64,000 nt of DNA, taken from positions 496,001-560,000 of the forward strand of contig NW_026570259.1 of assembly GCF_019649055.1 (NCBI RefSeq). The letters run 5' to 3'. The stretch is from Paramacrobiotus metropolitanus. Taxonomy: Eukaryota; Tardigrada; Eutardigrada; Parachela; Macrobiotidae. The notes under the pieces are model-generated. The model made no database searches, was not told the DNA's origin, and saw only the letters and a program-made list of their open reading frames with translations. Shown in pieces: positions 40,736 to 64,000 of this stretch. Positions within the stretch are counted from its first letter, which is position 1. The number at the start of each line of letters is the position of its first letter. Position numbers and translations under genes: made by a program.

Positions 40736-41079
40736 GACAGCGAGTGCGACTCGGTGTGAGTCAGCACACCGGAAGCGGGACCGTCGCTGGCTGCCTACTC
40801 GTAGGCTGCCATAGCGACTGGCCCAACATGCCTCTGGGCGGGAGTCCGAGCCCCTGCGAAGGACCGGCCTCATACCGCTCCAGTGCCCGCTCCGCACACG
40901 ACCCTATTGGGGTCGGTGGCTGCGTCTCGGAGGTATCCGATGATGGGGGTGTCTCGTGCCGCGTTCTCCTCCGGACCCGTGGTGGCGATACAACTCACGG
41001 CCGAAATCCGAAGGTCGGTCGGTGGTATTGTTGGACCGGTGTAGGCATCTGTTGGTCGCGTCCGTAACGGCGAAAAAGT

Positions 41080-41215
41080 AAAAAAATGAAGTATTATTCC
41101 GTCTGTCTCTCTCTCTAGTAAAATAACATCACAATTCCTGGTGAGCGGGTTAAAAAAAGATCAATAAAATGAGAACATCATTTCGAGATTAATAATAAAA
41201 AAAAGTAAACTCAAA
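41080..41215. other. AT-rich island within the GC-rich element
   Basis: Contains CTCTCTCTCTAG on plus (a purine tract on minus) and A-rich runs on plus. This could mark the 3' terminus, a polypurine tract or a polyadenylation region, but no option is confirmed. Confidence 0.3.
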
Positions 41216-41749
41216 GTCTTTGGTCCGGGGCTTTGGGCCGGGTGCTTATTCCGACTAGAGCTCGTCCGCTTCACGGGGGCTCCAGTCCACTGGAAGTCCG
41301 GTCGTCTAGGTCCGAGGCATCAATTCTCGGGATACCCAATGGTGCCGGTTCAATTCACCGAGGGTCGAAGGTTTGACCCTATTGACTTCGGGTAAGAGTA
41401 TGGATCTCCGTTGTCGGGTGCGAAACGGGCGTGAAACACACTTTCCGACCGGGATCCTCCGGTAAAAGTTTGCTTGGAACCTTCGTAGCCGGGTCAGACG
41501 GTCGTCCTTACATCCAGCCAGGGTTCATCGGGTAAGGTTGATGGAGAGGCACTGTCGCATTCGCGAATACCATAAGGTACCCTCTCTGAGTGCAGAATAA
41601 GACCTATTGGGTCTACTGGTCGGTGGATCGTCCGAAATGTCCGGTGATCCGAGGTTTCATCCGGGCAAAACCGTAATGTCATGTCCTGTCACCTATTGGG
41701 TAACAAGGACCGGTTGATGCCTGGTCTCCAAAAGGTTGAATGGTCGGTG

Positions 41750-41788
41750 GACGTGGTTTACACTGCACTGTGCAGTGTAAACCACGTC
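41750..41788. repeat. Perfect 19-bp palindrome
   Basis: The arms 41750-41768 and 41770-41788 are perfect reverse complements around a single T. It is not part of the TATTG family. Confidence 0.95.
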
Positions 41789-43229
41789 TGGTCCAAATGA
41801 CTCTGTGCAGGAGTCCGATCCCTCATCCGGTTGGCTTCAAGTTTTGAAGTCCGATGATAGCCTCGGTGACCGAGGGTCACCTCCGGTTGCAAAATCAGAA
41901 TCCAGGCTCAGCCTCGGTTGCTGAGTCTAAGTCCATTAGTAGCCTCGGTACTCGAGTTAGAGTCCGGGTGGTACCCTCGGCTGTACTGGCAATTGGGTAC
42001 GGTGGTGTTCCGCCCGGCTGAAAATCCTATGTTCGTCTCCTGTCACCTATTGGGCCACTCGGAGAGGGTATTTGCCAGGTTCGAAGGGTTGATAGATGCA
42101 GCCTCGGTACTCGAGGTAAAGTCCCGGTGTACCCTCGCTGTGCTGGCAGATCGTGATTACGCGATGTGCTGGGTGTTCTGTCCGGTCAGAGATCCCAAAT
42201 CCCTCTCTGGTTACCTATTGGGTAACACGTGAAGGGTGGGTTCCGGACTTTGAAGGTTGAAGTCCGAGGGTCCAAGGGTCGGTTGGCCTCGGTTGATTGA
42301 TAGTTGACGGTCTGATGGTCGCTTCCTCCCGGTAAAACCCTTATTAACGGTGTAGGTCACCTATTGGGCAACCCTACCGAGGGTTTCACCGGTAAGATGA
42401 AGTTACTACCCGGGCCATCCCCCATGTCCGGGGTAGCCTCGGTGGTGAGGTAGTCAGCATCCAGTAAGGCTGGTCCTAAGGCATTCTGCCCGGGCAAAAA
42501 CCCTTTTTAACGTCTCCCGTCACCTATTGGGTAACATGGAGAGGGTTAATGCCTCTGGACAGGGTCCGAGTAGGTGTCCGAGGGTCAGTTAGCCTCGGTG
42601 TCCGGGGTCCAAACCTCGGTAACGAGACTGGCCCAACATGCTCTGGTGGGAGTCCGCTTGATGCTCGAGATGTCCACCGAGTGACTAGCAAAAATCATGC
42701 AAAAGAGGCTCCTCAGCGGCTGTATAAGACCTAATTGGGTCTGAGCCACGAGGTAGACACTCTAAGTTTTAAAGACGGAATCCATGCTGGTCCGTTCCAC
42801 GGCTGGTCCCGTGCTTCCACTTAGGCGGAAACACCCGGGATGCCGGAATGATGCTGGGGCTAAAGGCCTATTGGGCCTATTGGCGTAGTTATGGGCGTCC
42901 GTAGCCTCCGTCAGGGGTTCAGTCATGTCGGACGCGGAAGAATGCTTATATACTGGTGTTGTATATACGCATTCACCCGTGTACCCTAATGTCCTGGTAC
43001 ATCCTTCCGGTGACCAAGGTCCGATTCGCGGTGAAATGGTCATGCCGGTCACTCATACCATTACTCCAACACAGCTTCGTGAGCAGGGGTAAGGGCATGA
43101 GTGTGCCCTAATGTCCCACTTCCTCCGTTTCGTTCCGGGGTGGAAGGGAGGCCTATTGGGCCTCGATGGGCATCCTTGGTGGAGTAGAGATCGTGGTTAT
43201 ACGCGATCTGCGATGGCTTGCATCCTCCG

Positions 43230-44640
43230 AGGGTCCTTCTGCCGGAGGGACAGGCCGGTGGAGCGAAGCGGATCGCGCCGCGCAGCACCGTCCCGTCGCT
43301 TTTCGTACGACGGATTCCGCCGGAGTTATGCTGCCGAGGCCTATTGGGCTCTCGTGCTGACTTTGAGTGACGGTCAGTCAGCCAGCTATTACTCCGATTC
43401 CCGGGGTGTCCATGGGTCGTTGGCAAACACGGTGCTGAAAAGAGCGGTCGCTTTTTCGGCACCATGTTAGCGGAATCCTCTTGAATTGAGTTCCGGAAAT
43501 TAGGTCATATGGGTTCGCTGACCGAGGAGGTATCTTTTCCTGGGTCCACGTAATCCATACTCAGTTGAGTCGATGAGTCGTGCGGATCGGGTTGTCAGGA
43601 GGTATAGCTTCCTGTACCACACGGTCCGCATTCTGTTGAAGATTAGGAGCCTATTGGGCTCCGAGGGCTGGAGTTATGGAACTGTGGTTCCACCAGGTCC
43701 TTCTGCCGGCTGGGTTTGAGCAGGAGTTCTCAGCAGATCATGCTGGGAACCCCTGGACAACCTCCTTTCGTGCGAAGGGTCCGATACTGAGGCTGTCACC
43801 AGGGCCTGGCTGATATAGGACTTTTCGCTGCCTATGTCAACGAGGTCCGGGCTAATAGGATCCGAGGGTAAGAGCCTATTGGGCTCTATGGTCCGAGTTA
43901 CGGAACGGATTAGCCGGGATTCCTCTGTCGGAGGGACCTGAGCAAGGACAACTGTGTGTTGCGCAGTTGTGCTTGTCCAGTCGCTATTCGTACGATTCGT
44001 CCCGGTGTGACGTTCCATGGGTCGTACTTTCATCCGGGGGTCGGCCTCCAGGATCCTTCTGCCGGAGTGGCTGACGAGAGACGAACTGTGTAGTCACAGT
44101 TCACCGCTAGCCAGCCGCTATTCGTACGAGTTATCCCGGTGAACTGGGGTTTCCTTTAGGTTCGACCCTTCTAGTCCGAGGGTCGAAGGGTTGGAGGGTT
44201 AGACGTCGGGGTATCCCTATTGGGGTATACTCCCTAAGTCAATGGCGGGTCGGGCTTCTACCACGGCCTATGATGTTCCCTTTTAGCTCCGGGGATAGCA
44301 GATCGGCGGAGTCGCTGATTCAGCTGAAGCCAGCTAACCGTCGGGGGTCGGCTAACCCTTTAGTTCGGTTGCATCCCCTCGCTGCTTGGCTCGGTTCGCC
44401 TCCCGTCATTGTCGCCGGAGACCAGAACATTCCGTCCGGTTCATCCAGGGGAAACCAGGGGAGACGTCCGGTATGGTCCAGGTTGAACTCGTACTTATCG
44501 GATCTATCCGAGGGATCCATCCAAAGTTCGACTCCAGGTTCTTCTGCCGGAGTGGATTATCTGTGCAGGGCATCGGGTCGTGCTGTACTGCGCAGATAAA
44601 CCGCTTTTTGTGCGAAGGTCCGGACTAACGTGGTTTAGGA
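43230..44640. repeat. Five-copy structured module
   Basis: Copies begin near 43230, 43700, 43920, 44055 and 44540 with (C/T)CTTCTGCCGGAG or a variant. Each carries a copy-specific stem-loop and ends with CGCT(A/T)TTCGTACGA-like sequence followed in some by TCCCGGTG. Stem-loops differ in sequence but remain paired (for example ACAACTGTG/CGCAGTTGT, GAACTGTG/CACAGTTC, TTATCTGTGCAG/CTGCGCAGATAA). Confidence 0.6.
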
Positions 44641-45379
44641 GGCTTCTCTTCCAGAACTACGGTAGTCCGAGGGTTGCCGGTTCGGTTATCCTCTACTGAC
44701 GACGAGGTCGAAGTTCTGCCTCAGTCGTCCGTGGGGGATCAGGCTCCGCTAACTTTCTAAGGTGAGATCCGTATTTTGGTGGTGCTGGCCAGAGCGGTCA
44801 GGTTCCAAGTCGGCCAAACCTGCTCTGGCCAGGGCCTAAAGGTTCATCAGGCCTAGCTGGGCACTTGCCTCGGACCCTATTGGGTTCACAAGGTAGTTGT
44901 TAAGCCTTTCATGGGGTGAAGTCCGGTCAGGTCCGATTCCTTGGACTCTGTCTTTCGATCCGAGGTATTTCCGTTCCCGCGATGTAGGTACCGTTGCTTC
45001 CCACGTCGGAGGGACGGAACTTAGAATTTTCATCCACAGGTGGAGGCCTGTTGGGCCTCGTATCCCGGAGCCTTTAGGGTCCGGTGAGGTATTGAGCAGT
45101 CTGCTCGGATCGAAAGACAGGTTGCTTGGTCGTAACAACATCGTAGTTAAGTGCGGTCCGCAGGTTGCCTTCCTCACTGAGATCACCACGGACAGCCGTA
45201 CTTGTGGCTGACTCTGTAAGCTTCAATGGTAGCAGGACGTGGTTAAAGCTGCGATCTGCAGGAGGGTGAGGTCGTGGTTAAGGCTTGTTACTGCCGCGAT
45301 CTGCGGTGCAATGGGAATCGGCTCGGGTGGAAGTTATGTTCCGAGCCGATTGGACGCAGTACAGGGTCAAGTCTACCGC

Positions 45380-45590
45380 CGTGTCCCTTATTGAGGGTCC
45401 GGTTTAGGTAGCTGATCGTGGTTAATGCGGTCTGCGCTGCCCTTGGACCGTTTCCCTTATTGAGGGTGCGGCCTGGTAGCAGATGTGGTTATCGGGCGCG
45501 GTCTGCGGGCTTTACCTCCGTATCCCTTACTGAGGGTCCGGTTTAGGTAGCTGATCGTGGTTGATAGACGCGGTCTGCGTTAGTGGCTTG
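45380..45590. repeat. 70-bp tandem repeat with two hairpins per unit
   Basis: Three units. Each has CCCT-TATTG-AGGG (45385, 45454; TACTG in the third at 45524) followed by GATCGTGGTTA...GCGGTCTGCG, whose ends also pair. Confidence 0.7.
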
Positions 45591-45744
45591 TCGTGGTCCG
45601 AACTGCAAGGTGGTTGGCCAGCGATCTGCGGCTCCTCTGTTGGGTTCCATCTGGGGTATACGTCTCTATTGGAGACGTCGTCATGTCCATGTGACCGGTT
45701 TTACGGTTAGCCTAACCCTATTGGGGTCCAGCTACCGGTCTTTC

Positions 45745-46878
45745 TTATTCTAAGTCCACGTTGACCGGGGCTCCACCGCCGAAGTGGGAGCCTTCCGAGT
45801 CATCATCCTTATCCCGTTCCCTTCGTCCTGGGTGGTTCGAGGATGTAGCCTCCTGGGTACATGTTGACTGCGATTCCGAGGCTTCCTGTCCGGACTTTTC
45901 AGCTTTAGTTCGGTGGGCTTCACGTCTTCGGCGGTTCCTGCCCGAGGATGATGAACCAGGCCACATGTTATACCTGTAGGATGACTTGCCTTCGGGCATC
46001 GGTGGTGATGTAAACCCAGGTGGCGAGTGGCGATGGATCCGGCACCACTCCGAGAGGGTCGAAGCCTCGTCGACATCCTTTTCGTCGTCCGGATGGTATA
46101 GTCGGGGCGGAATGTTGTTGTTCCGGTACGCGCAGTACAGGGTGTAATGGCTGTGATGGTGGCCAAGTCGGGCCGCGAAAATCAGTCGCAAAGCCGTCTG
46201 GAAAGCCATCGGAGCATCTCCGCGGGCTTCGGGTTCGATGTTGCCAAGGTATTCAGGCAAACCCTGGGCAGCTCTGGCTGCAGTAATCACCATGGCTGCT
46301 TGTGCCTCGGTGAGTACAAACTGCGCCACCCATTCCGTATGGTCCGTGACCTCTCGTTCTGAGGCATACAACGGAAGCTGACTCAGCTGAGACCAGTCGA
46401 GATGGTCGAGTGGCAGTCCCAATATTGCTGGGTCGGTTGCGCTAGGCAAGCCGTTCGTCCGGTAGTACGGGAATCCTATGCCATAGGCCAACCGATCGTT
46501 CATCTCAAAGTCCTCGGACCATTGCCGATGTTCAAACATCTGTTGGTATCCGGAGTGGTTGAGGAAGATTCGAAGGTCGTTGACTAGGTGCCACACTTGA
46601 TTACGTCGATCTTCCCGGTACTGCATGGTTCCCATGATGTAATTCGTCCGTTCCGTCGGATGTGGGATTTCCACCGCAATGCCCTGTCGGCGTGCATGGT
46701 CGTACCGAGGGTCATGCTGGCCTGGCACTATCGGGTCTGGGTCGGGTAGTGGGCGCTGTGGCACCGGCAACTCGTCCGTCCGGCAAAGGTGGGGGTGGTC
46801 GCAGGGCTGGGTGTCGAGCCGTCTGATGTCGGGGCACGGGCCGAGTAAGGTTACGCCGGGACTTACTGTTAGAGTCAA
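45745..46878 (-). CDS. Retroelement accessory ORF, C-terminal part
   Basis: Last coding frame of the element before the non-coding region. It has coherent protein-like composition: a Pro-rich start, a folded-looking middle (QVWHLVNDLRIFLNHSGYQQ and AQAAMVITAARAAQGLPEYL), a His-rich patch (ARLGHHHSHYTLY) and a charged, Ser-rich tail with RRRRE-type basic and DKDDDSE acidic runs. Function not recognised. It overlaps the upstream frame 46712-47884 and is related to it by a +1 change near 46880, so the two are probably one protein in an intact element. Confidence 0.55.
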   Translation of the reverse strand: MTLTVSPGVTLLGPCPDIRRLDTQPCDHPHLCRTDELPVPQRPLPDPDPIVPGQHDPRYDHARRQGIAVEIPHPTERTNYIMGTMQYREDRRNQVWHLVNDLRIFLNHSGYQQMFEHRQWSEDFEMNDRLAYGIGFPYYRTNGLPSATDPAILGLPLDHLDWSQLSQLPLYASEREVTDHTEWVAQFVLTEAQAAMVITAARAAQGLPEYLGNIEPEARGDAPMAFQTALRLIFAARLGHHHSHYTLYCAYRNNNIPPRLYHPDDEKDVDEASTLSEWCRIHRHSPPGFTSPPMPEGKSSYRYNMWPGSSSSGRNRRRREAHRTKAEKSGQEASESQSTCTQEATSSNHPGRRERDKDDDSEGSHFGGGAPVNVDLE

Positions 46879-47998
46879 CGACGAGCCCGTTATCCTCTGA
46901 TCCGGATCGCTTACCGGGGGAGGGTCGGGTCCGATCCTTCGAAGCCCGGTCCGCTGGCTGTTGCACGGTCGCGGGCCTATTCTGAGCCTCCAGCTTATGT
47001 CGTAAGTCCCTTCCCAGCCTATGACGCAGGTCGCCAGGGGTCAAGTCTGAGACACTCTGGGTTCTTCGGTAAGACGGAGTGGACCCTGTTGGGGTCACTG
47101 CTGCCGTCGCCGGTTGTTCTGCTGAGCAAACCACTGGTTGGGTTGATGGCTGCAAAAGTGGAACCGGGGGCTGCAGGGGTAAGCTGCCCATTTGCTGCGG
47201 TAAGCCACCTTCTTGTGGGGCTACCAGCTGCTGTTCCACTTGGCTCCGCTGAATTGCCGCCGGAGCTTCCATCTGGTGGGGGTCAAGGATTTGAGCCGTG
47301 TATTGTCGGCCGTCAGGTCCGGTGAGGGTTACCGTCATCCCGGTGAGTGGTGCGGGACCGACCTGGAATGCACTCGTGGTGCTGGGTATGTTTGCAGTCC
47401 CATCCGGGTTTAGCACTTCCGCAAAGGCATTAAGGGGTGCTGAAGGCTCGTCCGGTAACCTGTTGGGTTCCGCCATGAGTCGAGCCTGTGAGCAGCCAGC
47501 TACGCCCAAGGATGGGAGTTTATCCTCCTTCTGGCGTGTCCGTTTGTCGTGCTCACGCTGGGCTCTGGCGATCCGTCGGTCGGCTGCCTCTACTTCTCGG
47601 CGGTCGTCCTCACGTTCTTGCTCCCGTCGTTGTTCGCGGGCATGGACCAGTCGGGCGTTGTCCGGGACTGCTGGGGTGTTATCCCAACCAGGCTCGTGGG
47701 TACGTCTGCGGTAGCGTTGCATGTCCCACATATGGAGCAACTCCCGGCCTTCCAACTGGTCGAAGACTCTGCTGTTGTGGATTAAGTACGTATACGCACT
47801 CAAGTTTCCGGTAACGACTTGGAGATACAGGGCATTAGCCTGGTCCCGTCGTGTAACTCGGTTCTCCCCGGCCTGTCTGTCCATATGTCGTAACAGGCAG
47901 TCCGCGCAGGGTTGGCGTGTCCGGGGTAAGTTATTGTTGGCTCGGCACGTCTGGCAACCTGAGTCATAGGGTTCCGTCCGGGGTTGAGGAGGCTGTGG
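46712..47998 (-). CDS. Retroelement accessory ORF with CxxC-CxxC motif
   Basis: Open from 47998, with the first ATG at 47884. Before that ATG the frame encodes CQTC (47956-47945) and, 12 residues later, CADC (47908-47897), a classical zinc-binding arrangement; losing it to an internal start seems unlikely, so a non-ATG start, upstream splicing or an altered start codon is possible. Then come a helical Arg/Glu-rich stretch (REQEREDDRREVEAADRR), a beta-rich segment (MTVTLTGPDGRQYTAQILD) and a Pro/Gln-rich tail. It may bind nucleic acid like a nucleocapsid, but this is inference. Confidence 0.5.
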   Translation of the reverse strand, partial: PQPPQPRTEPYDSGCQTCRANNNLPRTRQPCADCLLRHMDRQAGENRVTRRDQANALYLQVVTGNLSAYTYLIHNSRVFDQLEGRELLHMWDMQRYRRRTHEPGWDNTPAVPDNARLVHAREQRREQEREDDRREVEAADRRIARAQREHDKRTRQKEDKLPSLGVAGCSQARLMAEPNRLPDEPSAPLNAFAEVLNPDGTANIPSTTSAFQVGPAPLTGMTVTLTGPDGRQYTAQILDPHQMEAPAAIQRSQVEQQLVAPQEGGLPQQMGSLPLQPPVPLLQPSTQPVVCSAEQPATAAVTPTGSTPSYRRTQSVSDLTPGDLRHRLGRDLRHKLEAQNRPATVQQPADRASKDRTRPSPGKRSGSEDNGLVVDSNSKSRRNLTRPVPRHQTARHPALRPPPPLPDGRVAGATAPTTRPRPDSARPA

Positions 47999-48236
47999 TC
48001 AGAAACACTTAACTTAATATTGTTAAGTTATTTTTGTTTTTAAACCTTTTGGGTCATTACGTAAACCTATTGGGTTAAACGTTCTATGGACTTAGGTGTA
48101 AGCTTAAACGGTCGGGTACGGTCAGGTCTTGTCCGATCCTTTTCCTTCTCGCCTATTGGGCAAGAGAAACATCCCCGTTACGGAGGTTATAGGGTCTCGC
48201 CTATTGGGCAAGGAACCTCCGGTGATGTACTTCCGT
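47999..48236. other. Non-coding gap between accessory ORFs, with hairpins
   Basis: Contains four of the conserved-loop hairpins: 48010-48030 (TAACTTAA/TTAAGTTA, loop TATTG), 48064-48076, about 48146-48168 and about 48199-48209. The last is enclosed in a larger stem pairing 48181-48188 with 48214-48221. The upstream frame ends at a TAA here, so this looks like a true gap between coding units. Confidence 0.6.
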
Positions 48237-49169
48237 TTAGCTCTTCTTCTTCGGCAGGTCAGCCGGGTTGGTCGACTTAGCCCGTGCTAACCGCTTCTGG
48301 GCTTCCGTTTCGGCTAATGTGGGAGCCTTCGCCGGGCTCGCCGAGCTTGCCCGCGTCTTTGGCAGGTGCTGTCTAAAGTCTTCAGGTAGATAGAAGACGG
48401 AGAAACGCTGCCCGTGGGTCTTGTAAACCTCACTCGATCCGAGAACTTTCTGTCGGCAGGCTTGCTCCAAGACATACTCCAGCTCATCGGCCAGATGGAA
48501 CAGGTTACTTTCCTTTCGTCGGACCGGTCGGTACCGTGCGTCTTCCAGTTGAGGGTAGGCGGACATCAGGATGAACTCAAACCGACCTATTAGGTGGCTC
48601 GCAATCTCCCGGCGAGTTAATCCTTCCGGGTGTCGATCCGTCTGCAGGCAGGCGATCACTGCGTCCCGCCATCCGAGGTAAGTCTTCGGTGCTGGGTCTT
48701 GTTCCTCCCTTGGAAAGACGTAGTATGCCCGTTCGGTTTTAGTATATACCCGGAGGATGGCACCGGTCTCGTATGCCATCCGACAGTAGATCTTAACTCT
48801 GTCCAGGCTAAGGTCGAACCAGCTTCCGTCCTTGTCGACGCGCCAATGCTTCAACAGCTGGTAAGCCAACTCCGGGGTTGCATAGGTTGGGCCCGACCAG
48901 GACAGCGACTTGAGTGCAGCGTGCACGTGCACCCATCCAGGGTCAGTATCGGAGATCTGAGGCTTCGGTCTCGAAGCCCGCATGGTTGCCGGCTGCTTGG
49001 GCCGGGAAAGCCGAATGATAGGCTTCGGTGGGATCTCCCGAGGCAAGACTTGCGCTGTATCCTCGTGCCACTTCATAAGTAGCTGGTCGGCCGGAGGGCT
49101 CGGGGTCCTTTGGTCGAAAAGGCCCGAGGCTTGTTGTTGAGAGGGTACTTTTGACCCCGCTTCCTCCAT
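48237..49169 (-). CDS. Retroelement accessory ORF with two winged-helix-like domains
   Basis: Residues 79-153 (48935-48711) and 166-262 (48674-48384) each have the helix-helix-helix-wing pattern of linker-histone-like winged helices. The first contains ATPELAYQLLKHW and ends YYVFP; the second contains LTRREIASHLIG and ends RFSVFYLP. The tail is basic (NPADLPKKKS) and ends with TAA. An acidic/Pro-rich linker precedes it in the same frame. The upstream frame 49073-50275 joins it by a -1 change near 49385. Winged helices usually bind DNA or chromatin; here they could tether the element to chromatin or coat its nucleic acid. This is inference. Confidence 0.55.
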   Translation of the reverse strand: MEEAGSKVPSQQQASGLFDQRTPSPPADQLLMKWHEDTAQVLPREIPPKPIIRLSRPKQPATMRASRPKPQISDTDPGWVHVHAALKSLSWSGPTYATPELAYQLLKHWRVDKDGSWFDLSLDRVKIYCRMAYETGAILRVYTKTERAYYVFPREEQDPAPKTYLGWRDAVIACLQTDRHPEGLTRREIASHLIGRFEFILMSAYPQLEDARYRPVRRKESNLFHLADELEYVLEQACRQKVLGSSEVYKTHGQRFSVFYLPEDFRQHLPKTRASSASPAKAPTLAETEAQKRLARAKSTNPADLPKKKS

Positions 49170-51032: not shown

Positions 51033-51038
51033 CCAGTA

Positions 51039-53656: not shown

Positions 53657-53857
53657 TCAGGGTCCTGTTGGGATCCCTTCCCAGACTAAACCTGCGATGT
53701 CAGCTGTCTCCCGGTTGACTTCAGTAATTAAGTCAGAAACTCGTCGGGCGGCCTCCTGTCCACCGAGTCCGTAGGCCTGTTCTCGGCGTTTTATCAGCAT
53801 CGTTATGATGTTATCGCTGAGCCTTCTCACTCGGTTGACTCTTTCCCAGAGCTGCAT
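53657..53857 (-). CDS. Retroelement accessory ORF fragment, helical module
   Basis: Helical module (MQLWERVNRVRRLSDNIITM ... RRVSDLITEVNRETADIAGL) ending at an in-frame TGA (53657). It connects to 53827-54870 by a -1 change near 53850. Confidence 0.4.
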   Translation of the reverse strand: MQLWERVNRVRRLSDNIITMLIKRREQAYGLGGQEAARRVSDLITEVNRETADIAGLVWEGIPTGP

Positions 53858-55515: not shown

Positions 55516-56461
55516 TGTGAGTTCCTCCGAGGGTCGGATCTGCCTTCGCGATCCAGCCGAGGATGCGGCTGAGATCGGTTCAACCGTAATTGCGGTTGAC
55601 TGACAGTAAAAGGTCTGACAGTAAAAGGTCCAGGTGTCGAGGGTCCGGCTGTCGGTTGTGCCGGACTTGCCTCTGCTGATGATGTCGGAGGCTTCGGTCG
55701 TTTCAACATATGGACCGAAAAGGCTTTCGTTCCGTCCTCGTAGTATCGAGTGAACGGGGATGGTGTCCGTTGACGTTCCGGTCGAGCCGTCGCTGATACC
55801 ACCGGAGGCATATTTGTGCCGTCCTGACGTGGCGCCGCTGGTAAAGTCGGCTGCTGCGAGGCTCCAATTGGTTTAGTGACCAAGGGGTATCCCATCAGAG
55901 GGTTGACCGCGCCGCCTTGTGGCTGGTTCATACCCATCTGGTTATACCATTGTTGGAACACGGCGAACATTTGGTTCGGCATGGGGTTCATCCCGGCTTG
56001 AGTCATCGGCGGCCCTATTGGGGCCGGCTGGATGCTCGTCACCGTGATCGGGATGTATGGTACCGTCGGTGGCATAACTGGTCCGGGGATGAATGGTCCC
56101 GGTAGAAGTGGCGGGCGGATCTGACCTATTGGGTCGATCGGTATTGCCGGCGCATTCTGACCGGTGGCCGCGCTCACATTCACCAAAAGTCCAGTTTCAT
56201 CGAGCATAGTGCCCGGTGGCAAGGTCTGAGGGGGATCGTCCGGGGTTGAGTGACCATCCGTGACCCGACCGTTAAACCTGCCAAAGAATCTGCCGCTATG
56301 TTCGCATGCGGGTTTGTTACCTGTGGGATTGGGGTTTGGGTGGCTGAACGCGTTTCAGCCCGTGAACCCGATCAGTCGTGCGGGTACGGCTGGGATCGTC
56401 GGTTGTCGCGTCGGCTGCTGTTCGATCCGCTCGATGGAGGGTCACGTCGTCGGTCAGACAT
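55506..56461 (-). CDS. Retroelement accessory ORF, Pro-rich N-terminal region
   Basis: The coherent part 56222-55506 is very Pro-rich (GPFIPGPVMPPTVPYIPITV; PIG occurs where conserved-loop hairpins lie in the RNA), with a short conserved-looking core (MFAVFQQWYNQMG) and an Arg-rich end. A plausible start is the ATG at 56461 (MSDRRRDPPSSG), followed by one in-frame TGA near 56374 and a -1 change near 56235. If so, this is the N-terminus of a second, post-pol polyprotein. Confidence 0.45.
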
Positions 56462-56635: not shown

Positions 56636-56986
56636 CTATATTTGTGGTGTGGTGGGTTTTGTTGTTTTGGGCTTCTTTGTTGGTTTGGTCGATTTGACCG
56701 GTTCTGCCCTTCCTTCAGCGATCCTGTCGAGGATGTCCTTGTGTGCTTCATCTTCGGCCACTTGAGCTTCTTCAAGTACCTCCTGAGCCGTTAACTTAGG
56801 CTTCTTGACCGTCCCGTACTTCCGTTTCGGAGCCGGGGGTTCAACCGCATTGCTGGTTGATGCTGCCGGAACCGGTGTGTCAGGTCGCTTCTTCACCGGT
56901 TTCCTCACTTTTGTCGGCTTTTCCTTCGGTGTCTTAGGCTCCTTAGGCTTGGTTGAGGTAGCCTCGGTATTCGCGGCTAAGTCCAC
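56636..56986 (-). CDS. Basic C-terminal tail of pol
   Basis: Lys/Pro/Thr-rich, disordered, highly basic (TKVRKPVKKRPDTPVP, KRKYGTVKKPKL), with one helix (EEAQVAEDEAHKDILDRIAE). It follows the integrase tail after a single in-frame TAG and ends with TAG plus TAA in close succession, likely the real end of pol. Confidence 0.45.
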   Translation of the reverse strand: MDLAANTEATSTKPKEPKTPKEKPTKVRKPVKKRPDTPVPAASTSNAVEPPAPKRKYGTVKKPKLTAQEVLEEAQVAEDEAHKDILDRIAEGRAEPVKSTKPTKKPKTTKPTTPQI

Positions 56987-56989
56987 CGA

Positions 56990-57572: not shown

Positions 57573-57574
57573 TT

Positions 57575-58252
57575 CTAAAAGTCCGGTACCGATTTCTTCT
57601 TGTTGTAGAGTTCGGCGGCTTTCTCGAAGGCTTCATCGATATTCGTCTTCGCGATGTCGTGAGCCCTCTGGAGCCGTTCGTTCATCCTTCTGATGTATTG
57701 TTCCTTATCGGTGTAATGTTCCGGTGCGTTGGTTCCGGTGATGACGTCCTGGGGTATGGTCAGCTCTCGTCCGTACAGCATGTAGTAGGGTGAGAACCCG
57801 GTGGTTGCGTGTTTCGCTCGGTTGATTCCGCACACTACGTACTGTAGGTTCCGGTGCCATCGGTGACCATCCTTAGCGTCGCATTCCTTCCTGATTCCAT
57901 CCCAAATCGTCTGCATGGAACGTTCGACTTGGCCTTGACCCTCTGCGTGGTAGGCTGTTCCAAAGGTATGCTTGATTCCGAAGATCCTAGCCACTTTGGC
58001 GAAGGTCTTAGCCGTAAAGTGGGATCCTTGGTCGGTGTGAAGGTGGGTCGGCATGCCGTACTTCAAGACGACATCCTCCACGAAGAATTTTTCGAATTCC
58101 TTTGCCGAGTTAGTCTTGGTCGCTCGAGCTATGGTGAACTTGGTGAACTGGTCGGTAACGACCGCAATGTACTGGTAACCTTTCGACTCAGTCCGAGGTA
58201 AAGGTCCTTTAAAGTCCGCATAGATTCGGAACCAAGGTTCACCTACTTCCAA
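57575..58252 (-). CDS. pol (IN): Integrase catalytic core
   Basis: rve-type integrase core. The DD-E residues are in YADFKGPLPR (near 58205), HTDQGSHF (near 58035) and YHAEGQGQVERS (near 57945). The downstream GKO-like region (ATTGFSPYYMLYGRELTIP) is typical of Ty3/gypsy integrases. The frame is broken from the zinc-binding N-domain by a short GGAAGTAG-type repeat insertion near 58240-58275, and it ends at TAG before the C-terminal domain. Confidence 0.9.
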   Translation of the reverse strand: MEVGEPWFRIYADFKGPLPRTESKGYQYIAVVTDQFTKFTIARATKTNSAKEFEKFFVEDVVLKYGMPTHLHTDQGSHFTAKTFAKVARIFGIKHTFGTAYHAEGQGQVERSMQTIWDGIRKECDAKDGHRWHRNLQYVVCGINRAKHATTGFSPYYMLYGRELTIPQDVITGTNAPEHYTDKEQYIRRMNERLQRAHDIAKTNIDEAFEKAAELYNKKKSVPDF

Positions 58253-59084
58253 CTTCCATCTTCCTACTTCTTACTTCGAGTTTACCGGGTGGTTTAGTCC
58301 GGGGCTTGTTCACCAAGGTACACCGGGGGCAGTTATCCACGTAGTCGTGAATGTCAGATAGCATCCGATCCCAGTAGTACTGAAGCTTCGCTGCCTCCAA
58401 TGTCTTCACGCGGCCGAAGTGGTTACCGGTTTTTCCGTCGTGAAGTGCTCGGATGATGCCTTTTCGCATGAAGAGCGGGACCACGAACCGTCGTTCCAGC
58501 TTGGTGTTGTGGGTGGTCAACCGGTACAGTAGACCTCCGCTCATCTGGTAGTGTTCCAGCAATGGGGATTTATGATCGAGCTGGTCCTGGTTTTCGAGTT
58601 CATCGATCTTCTTCCGAAGGTGAGGGTCCCGGAGTTGCAGTCTGCGTAACTCCTTGTTGGACTCCATCGGTTTCTCCTCTTCATCCTCGGGTTCGCCTTG
58701 TGAACCCGGAACCTCCGGTCCGTTGACTTCGGTAGTCCGTACGTTTGCGGTTCCGACCCTCGACTCGCCTTGTGAGCCCGGATCGTCCGGTACGACTACG
58801 TTGACTACCCGTACATCTGGGGTGGACAGGTCGTTCCAGTCGGAAATAACCTTACATCCGGGCAGCGGGGTTGCTTTCGGAACAGGGCGACGCATATTTG
58901 TGGTCTGCCTCCATTCAGCTGCCAATCGGAGAGACCTAACTTTAGCCTCATCCGTCCGGCTTCGGGGCTCCAGTATGGGGTCCGGGTTTCTTCGGCTCTT
59001 TTCCTTTATTTCATGTCTTTGTACCCGGAGAGACCTTATTCTAATCTCATCCTTGAAATCCTCAAAGTTGGGTACCTGGTCCAA
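58239..59084 (-). CDS. pol (IN N-terminal): Pol linker and integrase zinc-binding domain
   Basis: The N-terminal two thirds are a charged linker. The C-terminal part has the HHCC zinc finger (LHDGKTGNHFG then NCPRCTLVNK) that precedes integrase cores. It joins RNase H by a -1 change near 59060 and the integrase core across the small insertion near 58250. Confidence 0.8.
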   Translation of the reverse strand: MDQVPNFEDFKDEIRIRSLRVQRHEIKEKSRRNPDPILEPRSRTDEAKVRSLRLAAEWRQTTNMRRPVPKATPLPGCKVISDWNDLSTPDVRVVNVVVPDDPGSQGESRVGTANVRTTEVNGPEVPGSQGEPEDEEEKPMESNKELRRLQLRDPHLRKKIDELENQDQLDHKSPLLEHYQMSGGLLYRLTTHNTKLERRFVVPLFMRKGIIRALHDGKTGNHFGRVKTLEAAKLQYYWDRMLSDIHDYVDNCPRCTLVNKPRTKPPGKLEVRSRKMEVGSR

Positions 59085-62000
59085 TTCTTCATGGGGTCAT
59101 TATCATCAGGTCGTTCAAGGGGCCATCGAGACAGAGCATCCGCATTGTCGCAGAAGACTCCGGGCTTGTACTCGATGGTGATGTCCTTCCCTTGCAGAGC
59201 CAAAGCCCACCCAGTTAGCCGGGGGTTGATGCCGGGTCTATTGGACTCACAGCGCATCAGGTTCTGCAAGGCTCGATGATCCGTTCTAACGGTAAAGGGT
59301 CCATGGTCAATAAAGTGTTTAAACTTCTGGACGGCCCAAACTACGGCTAGGCATTCCCATTCGGTGACTCCGTAGTTCTTTTCGGCTCCGTGGAGTACTC
59401 GACTGGCAAATGCTACCGGGTGTCCATCTTGTGACAACACCGCACCAAGTCCGGCTCCACTGGCATCGCATTCGATTACCGTCTTCTTGGTCGGGTCGAA
59501 CTTTGCTAGTACCGGGGCTATAGTTAAAGCCTCCTTGATGCCGTTGAACTCCGCTGTATGGTCGTCCGTCCAATCTGTCCGGATGGAGTTAGTCTTCCGG
59601 AGGAGTTCGTACATCCTCGATGTCCGCTGAGCGTAGTTGCGGATGAACTTCCAATAGTAGTTGGCCAACCCGAGGAACGACCGCAATTGGCGTTCTGTTC
59701 GCGGGGGTTGGTGTTGCGCAATAGCCGCTACCTTTTCGTCGTCGGTCTGGACTCCGGCTTTGCTGAGGACATATCCGAGGAACGGTAGCTTGTCCGTTCC
59801 GACCTCGCACTTCGAGGGTTTAATGGTGAACCCGGCCTCAAGAAGGCAGTCCAGGGTGGCTCGGAAGGCTTCTTTGAATTCTTCGAAGGTCCGGCCAAAG
59901 AAGATGATGTCATCGATGTACGCAAAAACGCTTTTCTTGCGGGCTTTTGCGGTTATCTTGTCGACATGCATCTGGAAGGTTGCGGGTCCGTTGCAGACTC
60001 CGAACGGCATCCGGTTGAACCTGTACATGCCTTCTGGCGTAACGAAGGTTGTCATGTCCTTCGAGGCTTCGTCCATTGGGATCTGCCAGAAACCGGATTG
60101 GCAATCCACCTTGCCGTAGTATTCCATCCCGGCGCACTTGTCCAGTAGTTCATCCGGGTTCGGAAGGGTGTAATTGTTCTTCTTAGTTACCGCGTTCAAC
60201 TTAATGTAGTTGATGCAGAACCTTGTTCCGACGGAGCCATCCGGGTTTCTCTTGGCTGCCAAGACCACGGGGAAGCTCCACTTCGCGTCTTGAACATCAA
60301 TGACGTGGGTGACTCCCTTGACGTCACCGTAGGGTCGCTTTGAAGTTGGGAAAACAAGCCGATACTCCCATGCGATGTCCCGTAGAACTTGTCGCTGCTC
60401 GTCGGTTAGGTTCTCTCCGAGCTTCATGGAGTTTATGGCTTTCTTCTGTTCCTCGATGGTTGCCGGGTCTTCGTCACCTTCTTGGGTAAGTCTGACCCGG
60501 GCCTTTCGGTCGTCCGTCATGTGTTCATACGGCTCGACTCGACCCATTGGGGTTCCTTTCCGGATAGTTATGTCCTTATTGGTGTGGTTTGCCACAAGGA
60601 TGGTGAACTTCTTCCCGTCATGTGGGGTCGGACCATCCCTCATCTCGATACCTTCCGCTAAGGCTTCCTCTGAGCCGAGGTACATTAAGTACTTGTTCTT
60701 AGCGGGGTCGACCTCTATGTCGAGGGTTACCGTAACTTCGACGATAGCCCTGGGAAGTAGCTGGACCTTCTGTTGGGTCCGTACCGTAGTAGCGTCATAT
60801 TGTGTCGCCCTCGGTAAGCTGTATGGTCGGTCTCCATGCTTTGAGACTCGGGCTACTCCCATCGGGATTTCCCATTCGATCCCCTCATTATCAGGTTCGA
60901 AGTCGTAAGTGTCACTGTAGTGCATGTATCCGATCTTCGCACCCCTTCGGAGTACCTGGTTGTACTCGGTCGCGTTCTGGACCTTGATCCATGCGGTATC
61001 GCAAGTTGGTCGGATCTCAATCGTGTCTTCGATCGGCCGAACTCCGGAGTGCTTCCGCCGGAAGGATTCGAAATGGATGTCCCGCTTAGGGTCCATGCTC
61101 TTGAGGGTTCGTACCAGTACGGCACAGGTTGAGAAGGGTGGTAAGGTGCACTTATTCTCAACGAATACAGGTTGCCGATCCTCGCTCTTGTCCTCAGTGT
61201 GGAGCTGAAGGCGATTCACGGTTGGGCCTGTTGCTATTGGCTTCGGCCTCCGTACTCGTTTCCATGGGTTATAGACGGTGCTCTCTGACTTAGTCTGTCG
61301 AAACGAGGCTGTCTTCGGTTTAGCCGAGGCTCCGTCAGGACTTGTATTTTTATCGGGTTCAACGGGGTTACCTCCGACGAATGTCGCCTGTTGGGCAATC
61401 TGTTCGTCGTCGGTCTGAGATACCCGTTGTCCCGCCGCACGGACGTCGTACGTGGGGCTTCCTTCCGAGGATTCAGCTTCAGAGGTGTTAGGGTCCTGTT
61501 CTAGGCCCGTATCGCTGGACGTAGCCGAGGTTGATAGGCTGTCAGCCGGGTGAGAAACCGTGATTGCGGTTAACTCAGCCCGTCGTTGGCCCGAGCCTCC
61601 ATTTTGGGGTTGCTGGGCTTCCTTTGAGGGTTCGTTACCGGACGATCCCACTTTTGGGGGTTCGTCCAGGGGTGCGTCGATTCCCATCCATCGAACCCAA
61701 GGGTCGAAGCCGATGTCGTTGTCATCGTCGTCGTCGGAAGTATCCGATGAGTTGCCTTCTGAAGGGTCGGGTGGCTCGTTATCGGAGTCAGTGTCCGGTG
61801 AGTCGCTTGTGCTCTGAACATCCGAGGCTTCCGAGTCCCAATCTTCGAACTCGTTGGCTTCTCCTTCCTCCGCTGTTCCAGCGGATGGTCCAAGTAGACC
61901 GTCAGTAACCCTAATTGGGGTCTGCTGAGTCGGTCCTTCCCACCTTTCCGGTTCGGGAGGTCCAGGGGATGATGGCCTACCATGCTCCCAGACTTCTTCA

Positions 62001-63256
62001 TTCCGAGTTCTGAGGGCTTGGACAATCGCTCCATTATTGTCGTGGCAGATCGGGCATTCTAAGGCCATGTATTGTTGATCCGGGGCATGTTCCCGTATGT
62101 TAGCTAGGCGGCCCCCTTCTTGTGGGTGCACAGCCCCTGCTAACCTTACTTTCTTGGCCTGGTGCCAGTTGCAAGGCTCGATCGGAGGTTCGGAGTCCGG
62201 CACAACCCTATTTATTCGGGTGTCTTCGCCGTATCGACTCCAGAATGAGGCTGTATCCAAGGTACCGAAGTGAGAAGGGTCTCGGAAGTGCCACATGAGT
62301 CGTCGGCCCAATTCGTGGGACTGGATTTCCAATATTGCCGGTATGGGGAGCTGATGTTCCACAAATTGTGCGTGGAGTACAATTCGCTCTTCTTCCCATT
62401 CGACGATTTCCTCTTCTAGGGCTTCGGTTAGGTTAATTACCTCCTGGCATTCCTCCCGTGCGGCTCGGATCTGATCGTTCGTCCTTGCACCGACTCGTTC
62501 GAGTGCAATTCTTATGCCAACCGTTCGGGTTTCGAGGAAGTGTCGAATGCCGGAAAACCAAGTTCGGTACCTTTGGTTGAGTATACCAGAGGCCGATGCC
62601 TCTGGTATCGGGATAGACTTTAGTATTCCTCGGACTGGTTCCAATCGGGTCGTCCGTACCTTTGCCAAGTATTGTTCGATGGCGTTATGGATTTGCAGCT
62701 CCGTTACGAGGCTTCGTTCGGTGTCCGAGCATTGCGGGCAGATCGGGGGTCCGGGGTTCATCGGGTGATCAAGCCGATTTATCCGAGCCTCATTCGCTGC
62801 CGTGCCCGATGCCTCTGGTATCGGGATAGGCTGCACTACACCCGAAGATGGGTTCCGCTGACCCTTGTTGGGGGTCGTCGGCGCCCGGGTGAAGACAAAC
62901 TTAGAATGCAGGTAGTCGCATCCAAGGAGTACGGGAACGTCCGAATTATTGGGTTGGACGTGGAATGTATGGGGGCTGCTGAATCCTTGCAAGGTTACCG
63001 GTACGGTACAGCAATGGGTTACCATGAAGGCGACTTGTCCGCCGACACCGAGTATTTTGGTGAAATAGGCCAGGGATTCAAGTTTAAGGTTGTTGGCCCG
63101 GCAGAAACGCTCCTCTATTAGGGATGTTTCGGCTCCGGTGTCCAACATAGCCATGGTTGTGGCTGGTCCAATCTGGACTTCATGTGTCCATGCCCGGACT
63201 ACCTTCAGTCGTCCGGTGGTCTGTAACGGTTCAATCGTTACCTCCCTAATAGTCAC
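59036..63256 (-). CDS. pol (PR-RT-RH): Ty3/gypsy protease, insert, reverse transcriptase and RNase H
   Basis: 1406-codon frame. A retropepsin-like protease near the N-terminus has MLDTGAETSLIEE (about 63150-63110) and a flap-like LGVGG. RT follows from about residue 950: VDCQSGFWQIPM and the catalytic YIDD (59897-59920), then FLGLANYYWKFI. RNase H has ECDASGAGLG, WECLAVVWAV and RTDHRAL. Between protease and RT lie about 800 residues instead of the usual short linker. That insert holds two CxxC modules (ICPQC, ECPIC), a long acidic stretch (SDTSDDDDDNDIGFD) and two beta-rich repeats ending IKVQNATEYNQVLRRGAKIG and ILVANHTNKDITIRKGTPMG. No stop interrupts it. Confidence 0.92.
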   Translation of the reverse strand: MTIREVTIEPLQTTGRLKVVRAWTHEVQIGPATTMAMLDTGAETSLIEERFCRANNLKLESLAYFTKILGVGGQVAFMVTHCCTVPVTLQGFSSPHTFHVQPNNSDVPVLLGCDYLHSKFVFTRAPTTPNKGQRNPSSGVVQPIPIPEASGTAANEARINRLDHPMNPGPPICPQCSDTERSLVTELQIHNAIEQYLAKVRTTRLEPVRGILKSIPIPEASASGILNQRYRTWFSGIRHFLETRTVGIRIALERVGARTNDQIRAAREECQEVINLTEALEEEIVEWEEERIVLHAQFVEHQLPIPAILEIQSHELGRRLMWHFRDPSHFGTLDTASFWSRYGEDTRINRVVPDSEPPIEPCNWHQAKKVRLAGAVHPQEGGRLANIREHAPDQQYMALECPICHDNNGAIVQALRTRNEEVWEHGRPSSPGPPEPERWEGPTQQTPIRVTDGLLGPSAGTAEEGEANEFEDWDSEASDVQSTSDSPDTDSDNEPPDPSEGNSSDTSDDDDDNDIGFDPWVRWMGIDAPLDEPPKVGSSGNEPSKEAQQPQNGGSGQRRAELTAITVSHPADSLSTSATSSDTGLEQDPNTSEAESSEGSPTYDVRAAGQRVSQTDDEQIAQQATFVGGNPVEPDKNTSPDGASAKPKTASFRQTKSESTVYNPWKRVRRPKPIATGPTVNRLQLHTEDKSEDRQPVFVENKCTLPPFSTCAVLVRTLKSMDPKRDIHFESFRRKHSGVRPIEDTIEIRPTCDTAWIKVQNATEYNQVLRRGAKIGYMHYSDTYDFEPDNEGIEWEIPMGVARVSKHGDRPYSLPRATQYDATTVRTQQKVQLLPRAIVEVTVTLDIEVDPAKNKYLMYLGSEEALAEGIEMRDGPTPHDGKKFTILVANHTNKDITIRKGTPMGRVEPYEHMTDDRKARVRLTQEGDEDPATIEEQKKAINSMKLGENLTDEQRQVLRDIAWEYRLVFPTSKRPYGDVKGVTHVIDVQDAKWSFPVVLAAKRNPDGSVGTRFCINYIKLNAVTKKNNYTLPNPDELLDKCAGMEYYGKVDCQSGFWQIPMDEASKDMTTFVTPEGMYRFNRMPFGVCNGPATFQMHVDKITAKARKKSVFAYIDDIIFFGRTFEEFKEAFRATLDCLLEAGFTIKPSKCEVGTDKLPFLGYVLSKAGVQTDDEKVAAIAQHQPPRTERQLRSFLGLANYYWKFIRNYAQRTSRMYELLRKTNSIRTDWTDDHTAEFNGIKEALTIAPVLAKFDPTKKTVIECDASGAGLGAVLSQDGHPVAFASRVLHGAEKNYGVTEWECLAVVWAVQKFKHFIDHGPFTVRTDHRALQNLMRCESNRPGINPRLTGWALALQGKDITIEYKPGVFCDNADALSRWPLERPDDNDPMKNWTRYPTLRISRMRLE
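62583..62608. repeat. 11-bp palindrome in the protease-RT insert
   Basis: The arms 62583-62593 and 62598-62608 are perfect, with loop CGAT. The right arm and following bases (GATGCCTCTGGTATCGGGATAG) recur exactly at about 62807, giving two PIPIPEAS peptides. Confidence 0.85.
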
Positions 63257-63348
63257 TTCGACCAGGATTAAAGGTGTTGTTGATCCGCCGGAGACACTAT
63301 TGGTGTCTTCGCGCGGCGGTGATGAGATTCTGTCCGGCCTCGGTAGGT

Positions 63349-63552
63349 CTACTCCTTCTTGTGGGTAGCCATTCGAGGGTCAGTGTGGCCTAGTGGCCCG
63401 GATGGAACTTCCTTAACCGAGTGATTCGCCTCTGAACGTTTAGCTACTCCGTCCATCAACGATTCGGCGGTTTCCACCGGGTATATCCGGCTTGCTATCC
63501 GTTCTTCCATGGATGGTTGACCTTCTCGCAGGGTTGAGAGGTTATACTGCAT
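63349..63552 (-). CDS. Possible gag-end fragment
   Basis: Short frame from ATG (MQYNLSTLREGQPSMEERIA) upstream of the protease in element sense. Its position suggests gag or gag-pol linker, but there is no zinc knuckle or capsid motif to prove it. A conserved-loop hairpin (63292-63308) lies just after it, in the gap before the protease frame. Confidence 0.35.
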   Translation of the reverse strand: MQYNLSTLREGQPSMEERIASRIYPVETAESLMDGVAKRSEANHSVKEVPSGPLGHTDPRMATHKKE

Positions 63553-63648
63553 GTTGAAGAACGTACGCGATCCGGTTGCAGTTCTGGCCGGTTGTCGCTG
63601 GAAGAGGTCCGCTTCCTACTGCAGACAGTAGGCGGGCACCTGTGCCTC

Positions 63649-64000
63649 CTAAGGTACTGTTTCCCAGTCTTCGAAGTACTCCGTTACTTCGTCGGTCGGA
63701 GCCTCCGGCCGTCTACCTGGTTGGCCTACCAAGGGCGGTTCAGGCGTCATTCTGGCGTCCTGTGAGATTGCGGGTCGGCGTCCCGATTCTCCGCTTAGCC
63801 CGTGGCTCGTAATGCCTAATTGGGCACTGAGCCGTCCGGGCAGCCTGGTGACGTTTCTCGTCCCGGCTGGTCGGGTCCGGTTTCTCCGGCCGACATCCCC
63901 GGCTTCACCTTCTGGGCTTGGGGGTCCGGGCACGTTCTGTGTCCCGGCTGCCGATCGGATCCAGGTTCCTTGGCCGATCCTCCCAGGTACCTGTTCTGGT
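63649..64000 (-). CDS. Partial Pro/Arg-rich ORF at the window edge
   Basis: Open from the right edge to a stop at 63649. It is rich in Pro, Gly and Arg, with a repeated pattern (GTQNVPGPPS / GTRNVTRLPG). Probably part of a gag-like protein extending outside the window; truncated by the window edge. Confidence 0.35.
   Translation of the reverse strand, partial: PEQVPGRIGQGTWIRSAAGTQNVPGPPSPEGEAGDVGRRNRTRPAGTRNVTRLPGRLSAQLGITSHGLSGESGRRPAISQDARMTPEPPLVGQPGRRPEAPTDEVTEYFEDWETVP

Follow-up and report, generated by a model that had tools for sequence, protein, structure and literature searches.

In the phage lambda N protein-boxB and MS2 coat protein systems, a protein recognizes a fixed small loop carried on a short RNA stem. 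Dispersed stem-loops with a common short loop motif are found in RNA viruses and hepatitis B virus (HBV), e.g., RGAG in HBV, and serve assembly mediated by packaging signals (PS) (PMC6281560, PMC7612645). For Ty3, the accessible part of another source describes the RNA structure as uncharacterized and the packaging sequences as not precisely defined, and it contains no dispersed loop family for Ty3 or Ty1 (PMC4974528). Burro of planarians and Ogre of plants are giant Ty3/gypsy elements with a gypsy-type pol, an internal region of unusual length, and additional coding content, and Burro has a polyprotein of 4,873 amino acids (aa) with BIR, BCL2, MATH, and ankyrin parts; dispersed hairpins are not mentioned for either element in the part of the source available (PMC6431247). 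Here, we analyze a stretch of 64,000 nucleotides (nt) of the tardigrade Paramacrobiotus metropolitanus (GCF_019649055.1, contig NW_026570259.1, positions 496,001 to 560,000), called the window below. Most of a giant Ty3/gypsy element of about 25 to 32 kb occupies the window from position 40397 to its end; the sense strand of the element is the minus strand, and its RNA has many short hairpins with one constant loop. A survey of the open-licence literature by title and start of the abstract found no such hairpins in a long terminal repeat (LTR) element and no giant element in this genus.

Results

Hairpins with a CAAUA loop are in excess in the element

The RNA loop of these hairpins is CAAUA and, less often, CAACA or CAAUUA. 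Between 40.5 and 64 kb, the plus strand has TATTG 51 times and CAATA 6 times. A first-pass annotation of the window had proposed hairpins with a constant loop and variable paired stems. This was confirmed, and all 20 places that it cited showed the described arms and loops. At one of them, 43957, the TGTTG loop was present, but it sits at the tip of a larger hairpin (module B, see below), with imperfect pairing. The hairpins are listed below; two of the 36 counted further on (loops at 62337 and 46243) are weak and were left off the list.

40899..40915, minus, CAAUA hairpin, 6 bp
41600..41614, minus, CAAUA hairpin, 5 bp
41685..41707, minus, CAAUA hairpin, 9 pairs with 2 G-U
42210..42226, minus, CAAUA hairpin, 6 bp; related sites guuauc/gauaac and gucacc/ggugac
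42354..42374, minus, CAAUA hairpin, 8 pairs with 3 G-U
42518..42536, minus, CAAUA hairpin, 7 pairs with 2 G-U
42727..42742, minus, CAAUUA hairpin, 5 bp
42864..42878, minus, CAAUA hairpin, 5 bp
43148..43164, minus, CAAUA hairpin, 6 bp
43646..43662, minus, CAAUA hairpin, 6 bp
43871..43887, minus, CAAUA hairpin, 6 bp
45043..45059, minus, CAACA hairpin, 6 bp; the remaining 7 group members are CAAUA
45385..45397, minus, CAAUA hairpin, 4 bp
45454..45466, minus, CAAUA hairpin, 4 bp
45524..45536, minus, CAGUA-loop hairpin, 4 bp
45660..45678, minus, CAAUA hairpin, 7 bp; acgucuc/gagacgu here, acauccc/gggaugu in L040
45714..45728, minus, CAAUA hairpin, 5 pairs with 1 G-U
46418..46432, minus, CAAUA hairpin, 5 pairs with 1 G-U, in open reading frame (ORF) 45745-46878
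47082..47096, minus, CAACA hairpin, in ORF 46712-47884
47457..47469, minus, CAACA hairpin, in ORF 46712-47884
48010..48030, minus, CAAUA hairpin, 8 bp, A/U-rich
48064..48076, minus, CAAUA hairpin, 4 bp
48147..48165, minus, CAAUA hairpin, 7 pairs with 1 G-U
48196..48212, minus, CAAUA hairpin, 6 pairs with 1 G-U
49243..49257, minus, CAACA hairpin, in ORF 49073-50275
50009..50025, minus, CAAGA-loop hairpin, 6 bp, in ORF 49073-50275
51573..51585, minus, CAACA hairpin, in ORF 51039-52922
52375..52391, minus, CAACA hairpin, in ORF 51039-52922
53995..54011, minus, CAAUA hairpin, in ORF 53827-54870
55580..55599, minus, CAAUUA hairpin, 7 bp, in ORF 55506-56222
56010..56026, minus, CAAUA hairpin, 6 bp, in ORF 55506-56222
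56123..56135, minus, CAAUA hairpin, 4 bp, in ORF 55506-56222
61384..61398, minus, CAACA hairpin, in pol ORF
61907..61922, minus, CAAUUA hairpin, in pol ORF
63292..63308, minus, CAAUA hairpin, 6 bp, directly upstream of pol ORF
63811..63828, minus, CAAUUA hairpin, 6 pairs with 1 G-U

Around TATTG, the element has 12 perfect stems of 5 bp or more, against a mean of 0.01 in 100 dinucleotide shuffles, and 10 of 6 bp or more, against a shuffle mean of 0. In the host part of the window (1 to 40.5 kb), TATTG had no stem of either length. The counts are far above both of these controls, which had been suggested together with the prediction. The next-best pentaloop was TGTTG, with 3 stems of 5 bp or more. 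Corrected P values for hairpins with 4 bp or more were 8e-21 for CAATA (17/52), 3e-4 for CAATTA (4/7), and 0.03 for CAACA (5/54).

Pairing was also scored around all 52 sense CAATA of the element without a stem filter, with shuffled partners as the control. Watson-Crick pairs at positions 1 to 6 numbered 36, 35, 31, 28, 26, and 27, respectively, against shuffled means of 13 to 21 (P ≤ 0.0004 at each), and positions 7 to 12 were at chance level, i.e., pairing ends at six positions. Among the 344 pentamers with at least 25 occurrences, CAATA ranked 1st by pairing (0.587; mean, 0.249; standard deviation, 0.041), CAACA 4th, and CAAGA 5th. Because CAACA and CAAGA rank high and CAAUUA is enriched on its own, the loop tolerates a few changes. 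The stems had been called freely covarying. This holds for pairs 3 to 6, which have no fixed bases, but pairs 1 and 2 are mostly C-G (28 of 36 and 26 of 35 paired cases, respectively). A chance origin was rejected on the shuffle excess, the unfiltered pairing, the loop statistics, and the pentamer rank.

With at least four pairs and G-U allowed, 36 CAAYA/CAAUUA hairpins were counted, of which the 3' non-coding region has 16, the ORFs have 14, and the spaces between ORFs have 6. Those in ORFs occur in all three frames (5, 7, and 2), and a protein-coding motif was therefore rejected. Several sites in 41.6 to 42.5 kb are duplicates with common flanks. In the predicted fold of their 125-nt context, 23 of 24 CAATA hairpins form. 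The pattern CCTATTGGG occurs 1360 times on both strands of 169.8 Mb of the genome (533 contigs), against 710 times for the reversed pattern, and its occurrences are clustered. A scan of 40 to 64 kb with Rfam release 15 gave no family at the gathering score, the lone match, to mir-598, being at chance level (E, 0.89; 23 bits versus 69); a known RNA family was rejected on this result.

Stems are often compensated and loops conserved in other copies

Other pieces of the element in the same genome were sorted into three tiers by identity alone, at about 89 to 96%, 82 to 87%, and 78 to 81% for the reverse transcriptase (RT) protein (at least 102 scored) and about 90 to 100%, 74 to 84%, and 67 to 71% for integrase. 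Nine tier 1 pieces had the CAAUA hairpins, among them L040 and L067 of the diverged subfamily B; in L067, 16 of 23 CAATA are hairpins. Before the counts, 5 of 20 stretches (L034, L039, L041, L042, and L045) with no paired CAATA and a GC content of 0.37 to 0.45 were left out. Our guess is that these five lie outside the element, which the LTR position bears out for L039 only, so some copies may have no hairpins.

Hairpin sites of the window copy were matched to those of other copies with identities of about 69 to 93%. Compensation, as opposed to decay of pairing, had been named as the check on the proposed family, and the stems were often compensated. In the sense strand, acgucuc/gagacgu changed to acauccc/gggaugu and agacc/ggucu to aggcc/ggccu, and guuacc/gguaac, guuauc/gauaac, and gucacc/ggugac were found at related sites. 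Variants were counted over the window copy together with eight further 3' pieces and 19 ORF loci, which partly come from the same copies (L033/L055 and L032/L053 overlap). The 53 reference sites gave 38 groups with at least two members, which mix orthologous and duplicated sites, and the figures are distinct variants, not independent events. At pairs 1 to 6, there were 12 double Watson-Crick, 22 G-U, 9 A-C, and 21 other variants; pairs 1 to 4 had 6, 15, 2, and 13, respectively. The P value of the G-U excess was 0.027 for six pairs and 0.002 for the inner four, which were separated after the data had been seen. The excess is not a mutation bias, because substitutions making G-U and A-C are about equal in the background of the region (250 versus 228). 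A DNA palindrome or copying between arms predicts equal G-U and A-C, and selection on the sense RNA predicts a G-U excess; the result thus points to the sense RNA.

Over 225 site comparisons, divergence was 0.046 in the loop and 0.059 in the stem, about three times below the 0.170 of the adjacent flanks, a flank figure that is computed without gaps and inflated by indels, with some loci overlapping. Selection on RNA structure, as the first-pass annotation had argued, is well supported for the sense strand.

A second loop class and larger modules in the 3' region

A second short class, in the 3' non-coding region, has an AGAYC loop on stems of 3 to 5 bp. Stems of at least 3 bp were found at 5 of 13 AGAYC in the window (shuffle mean, 0.28) and 6 of 23 in L067 (mean, 0.26). 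The same region also has two larger modules, B and C.

43202..43212, minus, AGAUC hairpin, 3 bp
45249..45261, minus, AGAUC hairpin, 4 bp
45294..45306, minus, AGAUC hairpin, 4 bp
45497..45507, minus, AGACC hairpin, 3 bp
45568..45580, minus, AGACC hairpin, 4 bp
43223..43321, minus, module B, constant CGYACGAAWAGCGR / CCGGCAGAAGG flanking a free hairpin
43687..43786, minus, module B
43909..44006, minus, module B
44043..44140, minus, module B
44528..44626, minus, module B
43422..43480, minus, module C, GAGGAUUMCGCUAACAUG ... CAUGUUUGCC flanking a variable hairpin; stems changed between pieces

In module B, the constant strands CGYACGAAWAGCGR and CCGGCAGAAGG, with a constant internal loop, enclose an insert of 49 to 51 nt that is predicted to form one hairpin in 24 of 24 instances (window copy, L032, L038, L043, and L067). 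The five inserts in the window have 35% mutual identity, against 79% and 87% for the constant strands. Double changes occurred at 18 of 22 pairs, and 88.9% of the cells were paired, compared with 67.8% after shuffling and at most 44% when slid. Double-change cells numbered 118 versus 45.9 shuffled; further pair types were not in excess (42 versus 41.0). A covariance model of module B matched 5 times in the window and 6 times in L067. At an E value below 1e-3, its only other match in ten sources was an antisense echo of one window copy (1e-6), and a second antisense echo had an E value of 0.0015. Module C is common to tier 1 (window copy, L032, L038, L043, and L067) and tier 2 (L068, L069, and L070). 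A single hairpin family, as first annotated, is therefore real but too narrow, since at least two short classes and a larger module are present and pieces of a sister lineage have other loops (see below).

In an alignment of five copies of the 3' region, the fold had a mean z-score of -4.7 over 93 overlapping windows, 81 of them below -2, relative to column shuffles that do not keep dinucleotides. Compensated pairs numbered 380 versus 232.6 shuffled, with overlaps counted. A near-perfect palindrome at 41751-41787, with 18-nt arms around one base, is far longer than the other hairpins, and the alignment windows over it are among those with the lowest z-scores.

Pieces of a sister lineage have other loops

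In the first 3.7 kb of the tier 2 piece L068, no stem of at least 4 bp was found at CAAYA (0/14) or AGAYC (0/12), and ACAHA and AGAAH had 6/23 and 5/18, respectively (shuffle means, 0.05 and 0.07). In L070, AGAAH had 4/10 (mean, 0.01). In tier 1 (window copy and L067, respectively), the values were 1/7 and 0/4 for ACAHA and 0/9 and 0/27 for AGAAH. Related tier 2 stems (L069 and L070) are compensated with the loops kept, e.g., gcugacu/agucagc to gccgacu/aguuggc (one G-U) and gccg/cggc to gcug/cagc. Judged from three tier 2 pieces and loop sets chosen after looking, the sister lineage seems to use ACAHA and AGAAH instead of CAAYA and AGAYC. The classes may correspond, CA-AYA with AC-AHA and AGA-YC with AGA-AH. 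In the largely coding L036 (tier 2) and L037 (tier 3), no loop reached a corrected P value below 0.05; tier 3 is represented by coding DNA only.

L068 also has a hexaloop, CACATT, with stems of at least 4 bp in 3 of 4 cases (corrected P = 0.005), possibly a third tier 2 motif or a local repeat.

Architecture and proteins of the element

The main features of the element are as follows.

40397..40828, minus, 3' LTR, ~432 bp, TG...CA in sense, AATAAA inside; ends read
40829..45744, minus, 3' non-coding region of 4.9 kb, dense structured RNA (CAAYA and AGAYC hairpins, modules B and C)
45745..46878, minus, last accessory ORF, 377 aa; relatives in tiers 1 and 2 among the matches listed
48237..49169, minus, accessory ORF, 310 aa; relatives in all three tiers
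49073..50275, minus, accessory ORF, 400 aa; sub-threshold linker-histone similarity at the N terminus
57575..58252, minus, integrase core (rve), downstream of pol in sense
58239..59084, minus, integrase zinc-binding part (H2C2), downstream of pol in sense
59036..63256, minus, pol ORF, 1406 aa: aspartic protease (PR), RT (RVT_1), and RNase H, by Pfam scan

The earlier assignment to Ty3/gypsy is well supported by PR, RT, RNase H, and integrase. The order typical of Metaviridae (PR, RT, RNase H, and then integrase) is present, and so are TG...CA long terminal repeats (~432 bp). The LTR end was defined by seven short matches that all stop at query position 432 to 433. Same-strand pairs of LTR matches in other copies span 25.3 kb (C1) and 31.7 kb (C50) and are presumably the two ends of one copy. 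A search for a 5' LTR of the window copy as far as C39:574000 found none; the copy may therefore be truncated at its 5' side. On the host side, just beyond the 3' end of the element (39063-40080), there are direct repeats of 88 nt (100%) and 77 nt (97%) with spacings of 835 and 854 nt.

After integrase in sense, twelve more minus-strand ORFs of 116 to 627 aa are followed by the non-coding region and then the LTR. The 310-aa ORF has tier 2 relatives of about 43% identity and tier 3 relatives of 37%, and homologues were not found in a large protein set. The 400-aa ORF has a relative of 38% identity in one tier 3 piece; its linker-histone match is below threshold (best E, 0.004, in 2 of 11 members). 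A search of solved structures for two accessory proteins gave nothing of worth. The sole protein relative found for the 627-aa ORF is from P. metropolitanus (62% identity over 96%). In many copies, ORF 45745-46878 matches as two pieces (query positions 29-261 and 260-377) that leave no gap in the query but are separated by ~100 nt of DNA, which suggests an intron or insertion that the window copy lacks. Diverged repeats of 70 to 177 nt, spaced 378 to 393 nt apart, lie at 54483-55358, in and between accessory ORFs 53827-54870 and 55009-55515.

No gag domain (CCHC knuckles or retrotrans_gag) was found in three upstream ORFs of the window copy, which may be 5' truncated. BCL2, BIR, MATH, and ankyrin parts were absent from 18 ORFs (15 minus-strand ORFs of the element and the 3 upstream ORFs). 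A protein search with pol gave no confirmed relatives in viral contigs and none in phages. In other pieces, L031:106-1547 has overlapping ORFs of 326 and 331 aa on the minus strand, located upstream of pol, as well as two nearly duplicate CAACA hairpins of 5 bp separated by 45 nt, and L037 (tier 3) has open frames of at least 1192 and at least 803 aa downstream of pol.

Discussion

We favor the explanation that the hairpins are functional elements of the sense RNA whose loops are read in a multivalent manner by a protein; this protein is probably encoded by the element and would mark or package the RNA. We hold this reading with about as much doubt as confidence. The unpaired pentaloop would be the same in each hairpin, and the stem that carries it, of about 4 to 7 bp, would be interchangeable. 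An RNA-binding protein, Gag or the product of an accessory ORF, would read the loop on this generic stem at some 30 or more sites, which are densest in the 3' non-coding region. Occupancy of many sites would then mark the RNA as the element's own and condense it or recruit it into a particle. The 310- and 400-aa ORFs are candidate readers because they have relatives in other tiers. Because sister-lineage pieces in the same genome show different loops, the loop may serve as a lineage address. A fixed loop that recurs dozens of times on a generic stem would suit multivalent binding by such a protein, and different loop sets in co-resident sister elements fit self-recognition. A tentative extension, which we think possible though somewhat doubtful, is a lineage loop code: each lineage would tag its genomic RNA with two short classes and larger modules, read by a co-evolving element-encoded protein that tells its own RNA from that of the sister, with dozens of sites rewritten in step.

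A number of points weigh against this explanation. Protein binding, the identity of the reader, and the role in packaging or marking are what we infer from sequence. Of the proteins, 11 of the 12 downstream accessory ORFs were scanned (the 116-aa ORF 56636-56986 was left out) and gave no Pfam match above the cut-off. The structure model of the 310-aa ORF is too poor for use (pLDDT, 37), and the 612-aa upstream ORF, examined for Gag, has weak coiled-coil-type matches alone. Regarding the hairpins, 20 of 36 lie outside the 3' region, and 5 of the 14 tier 1 pieces fetched for that region had none, pieces that we took to be off target after a check of one. G-U and A-C are equal at pairs 5 and 6 (7 versus 7), and 21 variants at pairs 1 to 6 break the pair otherwise. 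The limits of the covariation figures also count here, namely, the inner-four split made after looking, the mixed site groups, and the inflated flank divergence. Module B is present in 5 of 9 tier 1 pieces, and a pattern search found none in L033, L035, L040, and L044; deletions are suggested in L033 and L035 because BLAST against the window skips the module B stretch. The fold z-scores are equal on both strands and give no strand evidence. As to the sister lineage, the three pieces and the loop sets chosen after looking limit the comparison, and ACAHA had 0/3 in L070. Finally, Ty1 packaging sequences lie within 580 nt of the 5' end of the RNA, according to the part of the source available, unlike the 3' density found here (PMC4974528).

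The sites could instead be bound by a host RNA-binding protein that controls the transcript (export, stability, translation of downstream ORFs, or escape from long-3'-untranslated-region [3'-UTR] decay), the hairpins having multiplied for expression rather than packaging. Their highest density is in the 4.9-kb 3' non-coding region (16/36), and cellular proteins that read short-loop hairpins in 3' UTRs are known. However, the 20 hairpins outside this region, some of them inside pol, argue against such a role, the different loops in sister elements of the same genome are not obviously explained, and no hairpin of this kind with a stem of 5 bp or more occurs in the host part of the window. We consider this explanation unlikely. 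More improbable in our view is a compaction of the 25- to 32-kb RNA by RNA-RNA or tertiary contacts of the loops (docking or scaffolding), with no dedicated protein. The 3' region does fold better than column-shuffled alignments, and module B has a large constant internal loop and an insert of near-constant length, as tertiary motifs often do, but a docking partner would have to change at every loop switch, and no complementary partner of the CAAUA loop is known, though none was searched for.

Pairing could also arise by mutation, through template switching on imperfect palindromes in reverse transcription together with duplication, or the palindrome could act as double-stranded DNA. Template switching is frequent in reverse transcription, several sites are plain duplicates with common flanks, and G-U equals A-C at pairs 5 and 6. 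This would leave unexplained a constant loop beside diverging flanks (0.046 versus 0.170), the preference for G-U over A-C at pairs 1 to 4 (15 versus 2), and the stop at six pairs, and the loop is asymmetric and strand specific (51 versus 6), all of which makes such an origin very improbable. CCAAT is an NF-Y-type promoter motif, and the sense sequence CCCAATAGG contains it; with C-G at pair 1 in 28 of 36 paired sites, CCAAT is created there, and the sites might be promoter-like DNA elements. Yet sites closed by other pairs (uaacuuaa/uuaaguua, cccu/aggg twice, and cccag/uuggg) and CAACA sites keep the loop class and the pairing without CCAAT, and pairs 3 to 6 show complementarity only, with no fixed bases. 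We find this idea scarcely credible. The DNA palindrome, the CCAAT box, and mutational correction of arms were rejected on this evidence.

Dispersed loop-tagged hairpins have already been argued for in several RNA viruses. The present case combines a strong signal with several copies of one element and a natural comparison with a sister lineage of the same genome whose loops have apparently changed. With this, how a retroelement recognizes its own very long RNA would become directly testable, and new hairpin-protein pairs with different specificities would be on offer.

Compared with known systems, the element resembles lambda boxB and MS2 in having a short stem with a fixed small loop; those RNAs have one or few sites, whereas dozens are present here, in an animal retroelement. 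With Burro and Ogre, it shares a gypsy-type pol, an internal region of unusual length, and additional coding content, but its LTR is short (432 bp), and it has none of the Pfam matches to BIR, BCL2, MATH, or ankyrin that would correspond to the parts of Burro. Ty3 belongs to the same superfamily, and Ty3 and Ty1 show selective packaging of RNA into particles. The packaging signals of RNA viruses and HBV resemble the hairpins of this element in that a short loop motif recurs in many stem-loops along a single genomic RNA. Such signals are defined by binding of the loop motif to the coat protein or Gag and by a need for it in assembly, a role that the present hairpins would have under the explanation favored here. 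The present hairpins differ in having a whole constant pentaloop, a high density in the 3' non-coding region, several motif classes, and other loops in pieces of a sister lineage.

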